Shown here one piece after another: positions 1 to 64,000 of a stretch of DNA of 64,000 bases. Below the pieces are notes generated by a model that worked only from the letters and a program-made list of their open reading frames with translations, ran no database searches and was not told where the DNA came from. Both the position numbers and the translations under genes were made by a program. The DNA is taken from assembly GCF_000522985.1 (NCBI RefSeq), contig NZ_CP007128.1, forward strand, positions 1,906,220-1,970,219. Direction: 5' to 3'. Origin of the DNA: Gemmatirosa kalamazoonensis. Lineage in GTDB: Bacteria; Gemmatimonadota; Gemmatimonadetes; Gemmatimonadales; Gemmatimonadaceae. Positions within the stretch are counted from its first letter, which is position 1. Each line of letters begins with the position of its first letter.

Positions 1-843
1 CGCTTCCTCCTCCACGTACGCGTACGCCGAGGCGTCCTGCGCCCACGTGCCGCCGACGAACTCGCGCGCGATCCGGAACGCCTTCGCGTCGAGATACTCG
101 AGGCACCGCGGCTGCACGCCGGCGTCGCCGTGGTCGCGCGCCGCGCGCGCCGCGGCGATGAACGCGAGCGCGTCCTTCGCGGTGCGGAACGGCACGCCGA
201 GCCCGGTGACCGTCGTCGGCAGCGGGAGCAGGCGCAGCTCGGCGGCGAGCACGACGCCCAGCGTGCCCTCGCTGCCGACGAACCAGTCCACCGGGTCCTG
301 CACGAACGGCGGGCCGGCGGTGTTCTTCTCGAGCGCGGGGCGCCGCACCTCGATCACGCGCCCGTCGGCCAGCGCGACGGTGAGCGCCGCGACGTGCGGC
401 CGCGTGGCGCCGTACTTCAACGACCGCGCGCCCGAGGAGTTACACACGATCGCGCCGCCCACGCTCGACTCCTCCTCGCTCGTCGGGTCGGGCGCGAGGA
501 GCAGCCCGTGCGCCGCGGCGGCGCGCTTCACGTCGCCGAGCAGCGCGCCGGGCTCCGCGCGCACGACGCGCGCCGTCGGGTCGACGTCGAGCACACGGTC
601 GAGCGCGCGCAGCGAGAGCACGAGGCCGCGATCGGTGATCGACCCGCCGACGTAGCTCGTCTGCGCGCCCGCGGGCGTCACTGGCGTGCGCGTGCTCGAC
701 GCGTCCTTCAGGATCTCCACGACCTCCGCGGCGGACGTCGGGCGCGCGACCGCCTCGGGGACGAGGTAGAGCCCGGAGGCGTCGGCGGCGAACGCGGTGC
801 GGACGTCGAGGTCGGTCGTGACGAGACGATCCGTGTCAGGCAT
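1..843 (-). CDS. FAD-linked oxidase (GlcD / D-2-hydroxyacid dehydrogenase type), 3' end beyond window
   Basis: Reverse-strand frame open from ATG at 841-843 to the window edge, so about 281 N-terminal residues are present and the C-terminus is missing. The sequence carries the FAD-binding PCMH pattern: PAGAQTSYVGGS near residue 58, then DPTSEEESSVGGAIVCNSSG near residue 118, then VGSEGTLGVVLAAELRLLP near residue 190. This is the VAO/PCMH flavoprotein layout of GlcD, D-lactate and D-2-hydroxyglutarate dehydrogenases. It lies directly downstream of serA on the same strand with a 180-bp gap. In other bacteria a D-2-hydroxyglutarate dehydrogenase of this family removes the 2-hydroxyglutarate made by SerA, so that role is plausible here but is inferred from context only. 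The substrate cannot be told from the N-terminal half. Confidence 0.85.
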   Translation of the reverse strand, partial: MPDTDRLVTTDLDVRTAFAADASGLYLVPEAVARPTSAAEVVEILKDASSTRTPVTPAGAQTSYVGGSITDRGLVLSLRALDRVLDVDPTARVVRAEPGALLGDVKRAAAAHGLLLAPDPTSEEESSVGGAIVCNSSGARSLKYGATRPHVAALTVALADGRVIEVRRPALEKNTAGPPFVQDPVDWFVGSEGTLGVVLAAELRLLPLPTTVTGLGVPFRTAKDALAFIAAARAARDHGDAGVQPRCLEYLDAKAFRIAREFVGGTWAQDASAYAYVEEEA

Positions 844-876
844 CGGCGCGTCGACAGGATGAACGGGGCTGTGCGT

Positions 877-977
877 TTTCTTCGACAGGATGAACAGGAC
901 GGACAGGATGACAACCAACACGAGAGAACTTGTTGTTGGTGTTCATCCTGTCCGTCCTGTGCATCCCGTCGAAAGAA
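877..977. repeat. Long imperfect palindrome, ACAGGATGA-type arms
   Basis: Left arm about 877-919 and right arm about 933-977 are reverse complements over roughly 43 nt with a few mismatches. Each arm is made of degenerate copies of a short unit (gacaggatgaacaggacgg). Looser copies extend outwards to about 851 and 1019. It fills the gap between serA and the downstream oxidase, so it may act as a processing or termination hairpin. One of a set of such palindromes in this window. Confidence 0.8.
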
Positions 978-1023
978 GAGGCTGACGTTCCTGTCGATCC
1001 TCTCGTCCATCCTGTCACCGGCG

Positions 1024-61177: not shown

Positions 61178-61248
61178 GCACGCGCGATACACGACGTTCT
61201 GAAAAACGTCCGGGATCTCTCGGGATCTTCAACGGCGTGACAGTCATG

Positions 61249-61512
61249 CCGAGGCGTTCGCTCGGCACCAGCGTACGTCTACGGCCCCGCGACCGACCGC
61301 ACGCAGGCGGTCGCGCTGATTCACGCCGCGGTCGACCGCGGCGTGACGTTCGTCGACACCGCGGAGGTCTACGGCCCGTTCGTGAACGAGGAGGGCGTGG
61401 GCGAGGCGCTCGCGCCGGTCCGTGACCGTGTGGTCGTCGCCACGAAGTTCGGCTTCGACGTCGACCTGGCGACGAGGCGTCGCCGAAGTCCGCGCGAAGG
61501 GACCCGACTAGG
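61249..61512 (+). pseudogene. Remnant of a second aldo/keto reductase
   Basis: An ATG at 61249 opens [12 protein letters not shown], a reductase-like start. About 15 residues of the usual start are missing, and in another frame the sequence continues [38 protein letters not shown] and [17 protein letters not shown] before stopping near 61512. The catalytic Asp, Tyr and Lys blocks are kept but the last two thirds are gone. It is most like the intact gene just upstream but clearly diverged, so it is an old duplicate or a separate reductase. Confidence 0.85.
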
Positions 61513-63973
61513 CGCCGCGCGGAAGGCGCAGCGTGAACGTCGAACCTGCGCCTAACGCGCTCTCGAGGGTGAGATCGCCGCCCATCGCGCGCGCCAGCTC
61601 GCGGCTGATCGCGAGGCCCAGTCCCACACCCTGGCGCTGCTCCTCGGCGCTCCGGCCCGCCTGGACGAAGGGCTCGAACACCGCCGCCAGCTTCTCGGCC
61701 GGGATGCCGCGTCCCGTATCGCGCACGGCGATGCGCACCGTGTGCTCGTCGGCCTGCCATTCGACCGTGATCGCGCCGGTCGTCGTGAACTTCACCGCGT
61801 TGGTCAGCAGGTTCGTCAGGATCTGCGTCAACCGCTCCGGATCGGCGCGAACCCGTATCTCGTCTGCACCGAGGCGTGCGTGCAACGAGAGCCCTTTGCC
61901 CGCCGCCTGCGGCTCGACCATCGAGACGGCACCCGAGACGACCTCGTTCACCGCGACGTCCGCGATCCGGAGATGGATGCGGCCGGCTTCGACCTTCGCG
62001 AAGCCGAGGATGTCGTTGATGAGCGAGAGCAGGTGGTCGCTGGCCTTCCGGATGCGCTCCATCGCCCCGCGCTCCGCGTCGTTGACCGGACCGTACACAC
62101 CCTCGGCGGTCAGGTCGGCGTAGCCGCCGATGGCGTTCAGCGGCGTACGCAGATCGTGCGACATCGCCGCGAGGAAGTCGCTCTTCGCCCTGTTCGCCCG
62201 CTCGGCTTCCACGCGCGCGGCGGCGATCTCCTGGCGCGCACGGACCTGGCCGGTCACGTCGACCGCGTGCACGAGAACGCCGAACGTGGTCCCGCCCGCG
62301 TCCTCGAGTGGTTGATACACGAAATCGACGAAGACCTCCTCCGGCACGCCATCGCCGCGCTTGTCGAGCCGAACGACGCGCTCGCGCTCCGAGTGGACCG
62401 TGCCCGACCGGAAGACGTCGTCGAGCAGCTCGAAGAATCCCTGACCGAGCAATTCCGGGAGCGCGTCGCGAACCGGTGCGCCGATCACATCGCGGCCACC
62501 GATCAGCTCCTGGTAGCGCGGATTCGCGACCGTGAACACGTGCGCCGGCCCCTCCAGCACGGCGATCGCCGCCGGTGCCTGCATGAACACCTCGTAGAGC
62601 CGCTGGCGCTCGAACTGCGCGGCGGCCAACGCGCGGTCGCGGGCCTGCTCGACCTCGCGAAGCTCGTTGATGTCCGTGTTCGTGCCGAACCACCGCACGA
62701 TCCTCGCGTTCGCGTCGCGGATGGGCTGCGCGCGCGAGAGGAACCAGCGATACCGGCCGTCGCGACCGCGGAGCGGGAACGTGTCCTCCCACGGCTCGCC
62801 GGTGTCGAAGGAGCGGCGGATGCGCTCGACGACGCGCTCCACGTGCTCGGGGTGCTGCAGCGCCGTCCAGCCCCAGCCCCGCACGTCCTCCAGCGTCGTG
62901 CCGGTGTACTCGTACCACCGCTCGTTGTACCAGTAGATCGCGCCGTCGGCGTCCGCCATCCACGCGAGCTGCGGGATGCTCTCGGCGAGCGCGCGGAACT
63001 GCGCGTCGCGCACGCGGCGATCGGTGACGTCGACGCAGGCGCCGATGAGGAACCGCGGCCGCCCGTCGTCTCCGAGGACGACCTTCCCCTTGTCGACGGC
63101 CCAGCGCAGGGAGCCGTCGGGCCACACCGTGCGGAACTCTTCGTCGAACTCGCCGCCGTCGCGCGCGCAGCGCTGCGCGGCGGCGATCACCCGATCGCGA
63201 TCGTCGGCGTGGATGTGCGAGACGAACAACTCGAACGACCCCGATGCCTCGGCGGGATCGACGCCGAAGAGGCGAAAGAGCCCCTCGTCGCAGTCAACCG
63301 CGTTGGTGCGCATGTCCCACTCCCACGTGCTCGTGGACGAGGCGTCGAGGGCGGCACGCAGACGTGCGTGGCTGGAGCGAAGCTCCGTCTCGCGCTGGCG
63401 CAGCGCCGCCGCGAGCTGCTCGGCGGACTCCGTGCGCGCGCGAAGCGCCCTCGCCACGCGCGCCCGCGTGATGATGTTGGCCGAGAGCAGCGTGGCCGTC
63501 TCGGTGAGCGCGACGTCGGCCGCGGTGGGCTCGCGCGGCTCGTCGTAGTACATCGCGAACGTTCCGAGGATGCGTCCCTCGGCGTCGAAGATCGGCGTCG
63601 ACCAGCATGCGGCGAGGCCGAACGGCTCGGCGACCGCTCGATAGTCGGCCCACAACGGGTCGGTCGCGATGTCGCGCACGATGACGCGCGCGCGCCGATA
63701 CGCCGCGGTCCCGCACGATCCGGCCGCAGGGCCGATGCGCTCGCCGTCGATCGCCCGGCAGTACGCCTCGGGCAGATTGGGCGCGGCGCCGTTGCGAAGC
63801 GTCACGCCGTCGTCGTCCAGCAGCAGCACCGACCCTCGCATGCCCGGCGCGACCCGCTCCATGAGCGTGACGAGCGCATTCAGCGAGGCGCGCATCCAGG
63901 CGGTGATTGCGTCGTCCTGGCCATGGCCGTCGAACCGACGGATCGTCTCGGTGTCCACGGGACCCACCTCCAC
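61508..63973 (-). CDS. GAF/PAS sensor histidine kinase
   Basis: 821 aa from a GTG at 63973; the frame stays open to the window edge, so the true start may lie beyond. A GAF domain comes first (residues 25-170: [18 protein letters not shown]). Three PAS domains follow (about 205-325, 330-455, 460-590), including [20 protein letters not shown]. HisKA carries the phospho-acceptor His in [19 protein letters not shown] near 625. The ATPase domain has [21 protein letters not shown] and [17 protein letters not shown]. No membrane helix is seen, so it is a soluble kinase sensing an inner signal, perhaps light or redox through PAS. No response regulator lies inside the window. Confidence 0.93.
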
Positions 63974-64000
63974 GAAAGGCCGCGCGTCCGCATCGGCGCC

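Follow-up and report, generated by a model that had tools for sequence, protein, structure and literature searches.

A 64-kb stretch of DNA from Gemmatirosa kalamazoonensis, a soil bacterium of the phylum Gemmatimonadota (called the window, by which we mean the whole stretch at its full length) is scattered with the heptamer GTTAGGC, which together with the base in front of it forms the octamer CGTTAGGC, a word that runs through the entire genome of this bacterium and through those of scattered relatives. The word is dense, exact and maintained at the DNA level, it comes in lineage dialects, is patchily distributed and is carried by phages, and the gene families of competence are present in the genome. 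On the whole it seems probable, by a modest degree, that CGTTAGGC serves Gemmatirosa and scattered relatives as an uptake-sequence-like self label and has been spread by biased uptake. Preferential uptake, a receptor and a drive by transformation are what we infer behind it: a putative DNA-binding component of the uptake machinery of the type IV pilus, with a minor pilin as the obvious candidate, would favour octamer-bearing DNA, DNA of kin carrying the word would be imported and recombined more often, and point mutations creating the word would thereby spread through the genome, in genes and gaps alike.

An exact count gave 54 copies of GTTAGGC in the window, 33 on the forward strand and 21 on the reverse, in agreement with the number that the initial annotation had estimated by eye and located correctly to within two bases; it had also reported copies in genes, in gaps and in both orientations, as we find. 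Its excess over expectation stands too, although the expectation itself of about six copies was too high, since dinucleotide-preserving shuffles of the window gave a mean of 1.74 and a maximum of 6 (100 shuffles), which makes the excess larger. As a C precedes 51 of the 54 heptamers (the exceptions lie at 9382, 24979 and 59093), the octamer CGTTAGGC was taken as the working word, and among the 7- and 8-mers with at least eight copies in the window no non-overlapping word stands as far from a second-order Markov expectation. Within predicted genes (the models come from our own simple caller and their start positions are approximate), the copies read mostly x-Leu-Gly with the codon TTA (23) or Pro-Asn with CCT AAC (11), as had been annotated, and further Val-Arg (3) and x-Leu-Thr (3). 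Fourteen of the 54 are not wholly within a gene, nine being in gaps and five over a stop codon, where the TAG inside GTTAGGC ends the gene, a feature absent from the initial annotation. The 54 copies of GTTAGGC are the following.

1378-1384, minus strand: Pro-Leu-Gly, predicted gene 1024-2628 (minus)
1495-1501, minus: Ala-Leu-Gly
3618-3624, plus: Pro-Asn, gene on the other strand, 2940-5822 (minus)
5061-5067, plus: Pro-Asn
6569-6575, plus: gives the TAG stop of a predicted gene, end 6573
6822-6828, plus: Ala-Leu-Gly
7983-7989, plus: Thr-Leu-Gly
8998-9004, plus: Val-Arg, close to the gene end
9382-9388, plus: T in front; Leu-Leu-Gly
10751-10757, plus: intergenic, in tandem with the 10762 copy, 11 bp
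10762-10768, plus: intergenic, in tandem with the 10751 copy, 11 bp
12393-12399, plus: Ser-Leu-Gly
12933-12939, plus: Ser-Leu-Gly
13101-13107, minus: Pro-Asn
15387-15393, minus: Pro-Asn
16331-16337, minus: Gly-Leu-Thr
17268-17274, plus: Pro-Asn
19823-19829, plus: Ala-Leu-Gly
20123-20129, plus: Pro-Leu-Gly
20533-20539, minus: Arg-Leu-Thr
21584-21590, minus: Pro-Asn
24763-24769, plus: Thr-Leu-Gly
24979-24985, minus: G in front; Pro-Asn
25243-25249, minus: gives the TAG stop of the predicted gene 25245-27584 (minus)
27042-27048, minus: Ser-Leu-Gly
29682-29688, plus: Ala-Leu-Gly
31725-31731, plus: Ala-Leu-Gly
32160-32166, minus: Pro-Asn, close to the gene end
32222-32228, plus: intergenic, between the arms of a GAGGGCAGGAGA inverted repeat (by eye)
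34433-34439, minus: Ser-Leu-Gly
36065-36071, plus: Val-Arg frame
36349-36355, plus: Ala-Leu-Gly
38549-38555, plus: intergenic
39470-39476, plus: gives the TAG stop of a predicted gene, end 39474
39989-39995, plus: Pro-Leu-Gly
40353-40359, plus: Val-Arg frame
46583-46589, minus: Ala-Leu-Gly
47010-47016, plus: Gly-Leu-Thr
48464-48470, plus: gives the TAG stop of a predicted gene, end 48468; in tandem with the 48478 copy
48478-48484, plus: intergenic, in tandem with the 48464 copy, 14 bp
51871-51877, plus: Pro-Asn
52336-52342, minus: Pro-Leu-Gly
54113-54119, minus: Pro-Asn, first Walker A of the EttA-like gene 53994-55664
55064-55070, minus: Pro-Asn, second Walker A of the EttA-like gene 53994-55664
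56462-56468, plus: Ala-Leu-Gly
56756-56762, plus: Ala-Leu-Gly
58547-58553, plus: Ala-Leu-Gly
59060-59066, minus: intergenic, one of four head to tail, 11 bp
59071-59077, minus: intergenic, one of four head to tail, 11 bp
59082-59088, minus: intergenic, one of four head to tail, 11 bp
59093-59099, minus: A in front; intergenic, one of four head to tail, 11 bp
60802-60808, plus: Pro-Leu-Gly
61173-61179, plus: gives the TAG stop of a predicted gene, end 61177
61550-61556, minus: Ala-Leu-Gly

Two further words of the window can be mentioned here, AGGGCAGGAG with 13 copies (both strands summed), which at 32222 flanks the octamer on both sides as an inverted repeat, and AGTCCCGAGT with nine.

The whole Gemmatirosa genome (G000, 7.48 Mb; elements of 5,312, 1,106, 1,041 and 21 kb and 72.6% G+C are published for strain KBS708, PMC3974934) contains GTTAGGC 5,148 times against 314 for the reversed control, and CGTTAGGC 4,469 times against 133, that is one per 1.7 kb, with a similar density in stretches of both megaplasmids. 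The comparison of k-mer counts with a Markov model that had been proposed as a check gave 296 octamers in a 459-kb sample of the genome against 1.4 expected (third order, motif masked), so the excess is not one that such a model produces. Predicted genes and gaps of this sample have similar densities, 0.63 and 0.75 per kb respectively. Both strands carry the octamer about equally (2,275 and 2,194 in the whole genome, 221 and 197 in 624 kb of it); single stretches are uneven, such as the window (32/19) or another of our stretches, L020 (3/15), with no consistent bias per locus, and a first impression of one-strandedness, gained from listed places, was not borne out by the sequence of the stretches. 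No consistent replication polarity was seen in the chromosome stretches, a test that is indirect, with the origin not located and the leading strand not assignable because the GC skew of these stretches is near zero. Spacing is close to random, with distances of 130-400 bp slightly under-filled (36 against 59 expected) and pairs 8-30 bp apart in excess (14 against 5.7 expected), 13 of these 14 being head to tail. The run of four heptamers at 59060-59099 of the window, in a gap between predicted genes, has an exact 11-bp step, about one helical turn. Examination of the flanks, another of the proposed checks, gave no conserved extension beyond the first C, except that T is avoided 3' of the word.

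The word is maintained at the DNA level and against codon bias, as the initial annotation had surmised. When synonymous codons were shuffled within the genes of the 459-kb sample, 8.5 copies remained out of 215 intragenic ones; in the 624-kb set, the word contains 175 of the 219 TTA codons and encodes 175 of the 694 [APTS]-Leu-Gly tripeptides, while in a depleted sister genome (G015) it spells none of 128 comparable tripeptides and TTA does not occur among 4,682 leucine codons. An artefact of base composition or of dipeptide usage, which could be suspected from the fact that most intragenic copies read Leu-Gly or Pro-Asn, is thereby refuted (shuffle, Markov model and sister genome alike) and keeps a practically negligible probability; the Leu-Gly dipeptide alone does not account for the enrichment. 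Where the word falls in the frame that breaks the protein it is found as the stop itself: 31 of 95 TAG and 23 of 46 TAA stops lie inside it, and the stop codon is supplied by the word in 54 of 481 predicted Gemmatirosa genes. A heptamer is found within 60 bp of the stop in 125 of the 481 genes against 8.9% expected (the 54 stop-supplying copies counted in), and copies near the stop recur in relatives (35 of 212 genes in G030, 17 of 96 in G020 and 14 of 124 in G019, with 0 of 145 in G015). The two terminal tenths of genes hold 79 of 285 intragenic octamers (binomial p 0.001).

The codon in front of AAC at both Walker A sites of EttA is CCT in Gemmatirosa but CCG or CCC in most relatives (CCA in a few), so the word arose there by substitution. 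Aligned to the sister G015, none of 14 sites has the exact word (1.5 expected by identity) and a mix of near words is found instead. Mobile insertion as the source was rejected in view of the lack of conserved flanks together with the substitutions at orthologous codons. Most words one change away are at or below the second-order expectation in Gemmatirosa, the exceptions being those with a loose first base and CGTTGGGC, as well as a few CGTTAGAC and CGTTAGTC.

Two lineage dialects are visible, one strict in its last C and one that accepts C or T at this position. The last base is nearly always C in G000, G030 and G020 (24, 39 and 36 copies of the T-ending form CGTTAGGT in the whole genomes), while it is often T in G019, G027, G011, G005 and G033, which have 581, 721, 346, 146 and 180 copies of CGTTAGGT against 193, 133, 89, 77 and 62 of its reversed control; the figures are 100 against 51 in G025 and 99 against 94 in G028. 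Some genomes of the T dialect have in addition an excess of CGTTATGC or CGTCAGGC in samples. Samples for the dialects amounted to 15-180 kb per genome (some to 20 kb), the Gemmatirosa set being taken without the attC-array stretches and contig C1 (see below), and since those of the relatives are small the details beyond the whole-genome counts are provisional. No comparable octamer was found in depleted genomes (20 kb each of G001, G004, G012 and G014, 40 kb of G021 and 100 kb of G015), samples of a size in which weaker words could be missed. The samples of G019 (L032, L151-L155 and L197, 140 kb) also contain AGGGGCTA and CTAGCCCC, 21 copies each against fewer than one expected.

The distribution of the word in the order is patchy and involves scattered relatives. 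Counts in related genomes, as had been advised, show 16 of 249 genomes across the phylum to be enriched, by which we mean at least 100 octamers per Mb; according to our own division, 11 belong to the family of the window (f1) and five to a second family (f2). In a third family the highest value is 49 per Mb (G040); every genome beyond these three families stays at or below 20 per Mb. A further strong case, G027 with 3,749 copies, comes from a survey of 59 relatives only. Within a single genus code, G020 has 3,754 copies and G241 three (the latter genome being 88% complete). Among the best 80 of 516 EttA loci from named genomes, 76 with names in Gemmatimonad- or Gemmatimonas and the others including Roseisolibacter and a bin labelled Kuenenia, the word is absent in 72 and present twice or more in seven, and the nearest named relative, Roseisolibacter sp. 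H3M3-2, has no copy in 15.6 kb. On an EttA tree of 29 out of 30 genomes (G027 had no full match, and a second, partial match of G193 was left out) the trait needs at least six changes. The depleted genomes G015 and G186 group with Gemmatirosa and G030 in a clade of four (100/99), inside which the fork joining G000 with G030 is weak (85/54).

Phage and satellite DNA carries the word as well. The small contig C1 of Gemmatirosa (20,952 bases) represents a circle of 14,997 bases plus a terminal repetition of about 6 kb, and has 12 octamers per circle (15.0 kb); judged from its translations, with integrase-, primase- and tape-measure-like genes, it appears to be a phage-like satellite. By exact runs, an integrated copy of nearly the whole C1 element opens the chromosome contig C2 (1 to about 14,513). 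A scan of IMG/VR for close pairs of the word covered at least 120 stretches, all of them counted, and seven records were counted whole, two of which are dense throughout (35 octamers in 45.6 kb and 43 in 41.1 kb, with 4 and 2 for the reversed controls). The word thus reaches or exceeds host density in two phage records and in C1. PHROGs gave a named function to six of ten proteins of these two phage records, an unknown-function family to one and no match for three, with minor tail proteins and endolysin among the matches of the 45.6-kb record and integrase, replication protein and repressors among those of the 41.1-kb record. L376, with 6 copies in 7.7 kb, and L401, with 7 in 11.8 kb, are possible additional cases among the viral stretches, and L394 has 14 copies, mostly in one tandem cluster. 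Copies in phages do not speak against uptake, because temperate phages of Pasteurellaceae accumulate the uptake signal sequence (USS) of their hosts, which large, likely lytic phages do not, according to a part of PMC6776037.

Several observations weigh against a self label spread by uptake. Pilus-retraction and DNA-import families occur in nearly all genomes of the order (of 59 surveyed, PilT in 59, HHH_3, which we read as a ComEA-type domain, in 57, ComEC in 55 and DprA in 54, all four in Gemmatirosa) and show no split between enriched and depleted genomes, so these families do not discriminate. Uptake-sequence receptors include ComP, and PpdA is predicted for the USS; profile matches of the GspH/FimT type in the 59 genomes revealed no receptor for the word, such pilins being present in 44 of them (7 of 10 enriched against 17 of 25 depleted genomes of f1), and the sole match of Gemmatirosa appears, judged from translations, to lie in a type II secretion cluster. 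The summed one-mismatch forms show no excess over base composition (544 against 558 in the 624-kb set), though they do exceed a third-order Markov expectation (397 against 219) in the smaller 459-kb set; relative to base composition they stand at 0.97 in Gemmatirosa and 0.42 in the depleted G015. A graded excess by number of mismatches is described for H. influenzae and N. gonorrhoeae in a part of PMC1939737. Positions of the word are shared between G000 and enriched relatives to a weak extent and over few sites (2 of 14 and 3 of 11 with G030, 3 of 8 and 3 of 6 with G020, 0 of 5 and 0 of 3 with G019). Codon-atypical genes, tried as a proxy of recent arrival and discarded, show no deficit of the word across typicality quartiles (5.9, 6.6, 6.4 and 4.7 copies per 10 kb from the least to the most typical). 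Starts also have a heptamer within 60 bp more often than expected (67 of 481 genes against 8.9%), and the intragenic positions do not differ from uniform in a Kolmogorov-Smirnov test (p 0.36). Inverted terminator pairs of the Neisseria type are lacking, the close pairs being almost all head to tail, as noted above. The identity of the word with an integron attC box (see below) is not predicted by an uptake model alone, and the open-access literature searched yielded no uptake or transformation data for the group. As an observation apart, many genomes of the order have, by eye, an HHH_3 gene at a distance of about 2-3 kb from a pilT, in Gemmatirosa at C2:4843897 with PilT at C2:4840814.

The initial annotation had likened the word to uptake sequences, Chi sites, HIP1 and methylation sites, and of these four analogies the first fits best; the Chi analogy is weakened by the lack of strand polarity, HIP1 differs in being a palindrome, and an N6-methyladenine (m6A) site is contradicted by the published methylome. 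The whole set of features (strong, exact, strand-neutral, with dialects, substitution-borne, biased to gene ends and shared with phages) appears closest to uptake sequences. A genome-wide octamer selected for some other role at the DNA level (repair, nucleoid organisation or replication), without uptake, as in the cyanobacterial HIP1 (GCGATCGC), strikes us as rather unlikely. Both are octamers with a copy about every 1-2 kb (every 1,131 bp for HIP1 in Synechocystis, according to a part of PMC6604393), spread by substitution and maintained at the DNA level, and it counts for such a role that uptake is reasoned here by analogy and that the competence families are near-universal. HIP1, on the other hand, is palindromic and, as a passage of PMC6604393 has it, methylated, while CGTTAGGC is no palindrome and no fitting m6A motif is reported for the strain (PMC3974934); the dialects and the phage copies fit a self label at least as well. 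That the word is itself the recognition site of a methyltransferase, as its exact, non-palindromic form with one A on the top strand, like that of some m6A sites, could suggest, is very improbable: the single-molecule real-time (SMRT) methylome of KBS708 gives the m6A motifs RGATCY, ATGCAC and CCAGN7TCA, each more than 99% methylated, none of which fits CGTTAGGC (PMC3974934), so that the methylome check contradicts an m6A site, a result that bears on m6A and not on other marks such as 5-methylcytosine.

A Chi-like signal for protection or recombination, recognised by a helicase-nuclease, would make phages gain by carrying the word and would equally explain its copies there, which are at or above host density in the two phage records and the satellite. 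Chi is likewise an over-represented 7-8-mer found in phages, and species-specific variants of it exist. Chi sites are polar, whereas no polarity was seen for CGTTAGGC on either strand count given above (the test being indirect), and the enrichment of CGTTAGGC is far stronger than that of Chi. This makes a Chi-like signal improbable, and for lack of consistent polarity a replication-polar one, of the kind of Chi or FtsK-orienting polar sequences (KOPS), was rejected.

A quite different origin could lie in integrons. Several f2 genomes without general enrichment have the octamer in one-way strings, its copies about 0.5-1 kb apart, which proved to be attC arrays: their sites, of roughly 100-140 bases, are bounded by GCCTAAC on one side and by CGTTAGGC on the opposite one. 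In six stretches of G158, G136, G035 and G050 the octamer makes up 51 of 60 attC boxes (104 anchor matches, 44 of them without a GTT box in range) and is the commonest box read. Long cassette arrays with rather uniform attC sites occupy L177-L181 (G158 C5, G136 C2 and G035 C95), in that other family of the order. Gemmatirosa has an IntI over the curated cut-off (C3:856836-857774) together with an array on a megaplasmid (C3 about 810,000-857,800; L184, L187 and L173) with 29 distinct anchored attC boxes, read from two 20-kb stretches (30 rows, one box doubled by overlapping loci); this may be the 53-kb tandem repeat region of the same megaplasmid in the genome announcement. The identity of word and box is unlikely to arise by chance, at about 1 in 33,000 for either strand before allowing for many comparable motifs. 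The scattered word could thus be integron-derived, an attC R box dispersed because the integrase or the traffic of cassettes favours core sites throughout the genome, to which we give little probability. The sequence is that of the R box, and arrays exist in Gemmatirosa and the order; scattered copies, however, lack attC anatomy, the paired boxes of a bottom-strand hairpin (most have no inverted counterpart at the spacing of an attC site). They occur in both orientations and inside conserved codons changed by substitution, and clear attC sites in Gemmatirosa were seen in the C3 array stretches only. The word is also exact where the Gemmatirosa boxes vary (12 of 29 exact), the integron core GTTRRRY does not accommodate the dialect forms CGTTATGC and CGTCAGGC, and IntI over the cut-off is found in 9 of 10 enriched against 17 of 25 depleted f1 genomes (Fisher p 0.18). 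Some tests point away from a tie between word and attC, and none links the two.

It is conceivable, though doubtful, that the uptake label of the order is the attC box: competent cells recognising the box that cassettes have in common would import cassettes by preference, and this bias would have written the box across the genome. We consider this because natural transformation is a good route for recruiting cassettes, according to a part of PMC8946536, and because the box is near-uniform in arrays of relatives without the scatter. If true, species-specific transformation would be tied to integron capture in a phylum where we found neither described. Natural transformation for cassette recruitment is the case in Vibrio. 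As a matter apart, CCATTGAA and overlapping words occur 30-31 times in 20 kb of L023 (G003 C1), perhaps a candidate array of clustered regularly interspaced short palindromic repeats (CRISPR).

Returning to the self label, the statement in the initial annotation that no such element had been described for this group agrees with the open-access literature searched, though not exhaustively, in which nothing joins 'Gemmatimonad' with 'uptake sequence'; the letters GTTAGGC, among the matches listed, belong by appearance to primers and unrelated sequence. Neisseriaceae and Pasteurellaceae are the only families known with such motifs, as a part of PMC12616744 (2025) states. If our reading is true, the word would be a third case of self labels, far from these two unrelated families, and since the word was gained or lost between members of one genus (G020 and G241), the convergent evolution of labels would be testable. 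In Gemmatimonadota, a common soil phylum, the word could also serve to mark the hosts of phages and mobile elements, and its identity with the attC box opens a possible link between transformation and integrons.

Compared with the DNA uptake sequence (DUS) of Neisseriaceae and the USS of Pasteurellaceae, CGTTAGGC is likewise a short, non-palindromic word, dense on both strands and in genes and gaps, with lineage dialects, families for pilus retraction and DNA import, and copies in phages, and it shares with the USS a bias towards gene ends (stated for the latter in a passage of PMC2346458). It differs in its unrelated sequence and phylum, in having no one-mismatch excess against base composition, and in being present and absent within one genus. 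Inverted terminator pairs are a feature of the DUS of Neisseriaceae, and are not required of all uptake sequences.

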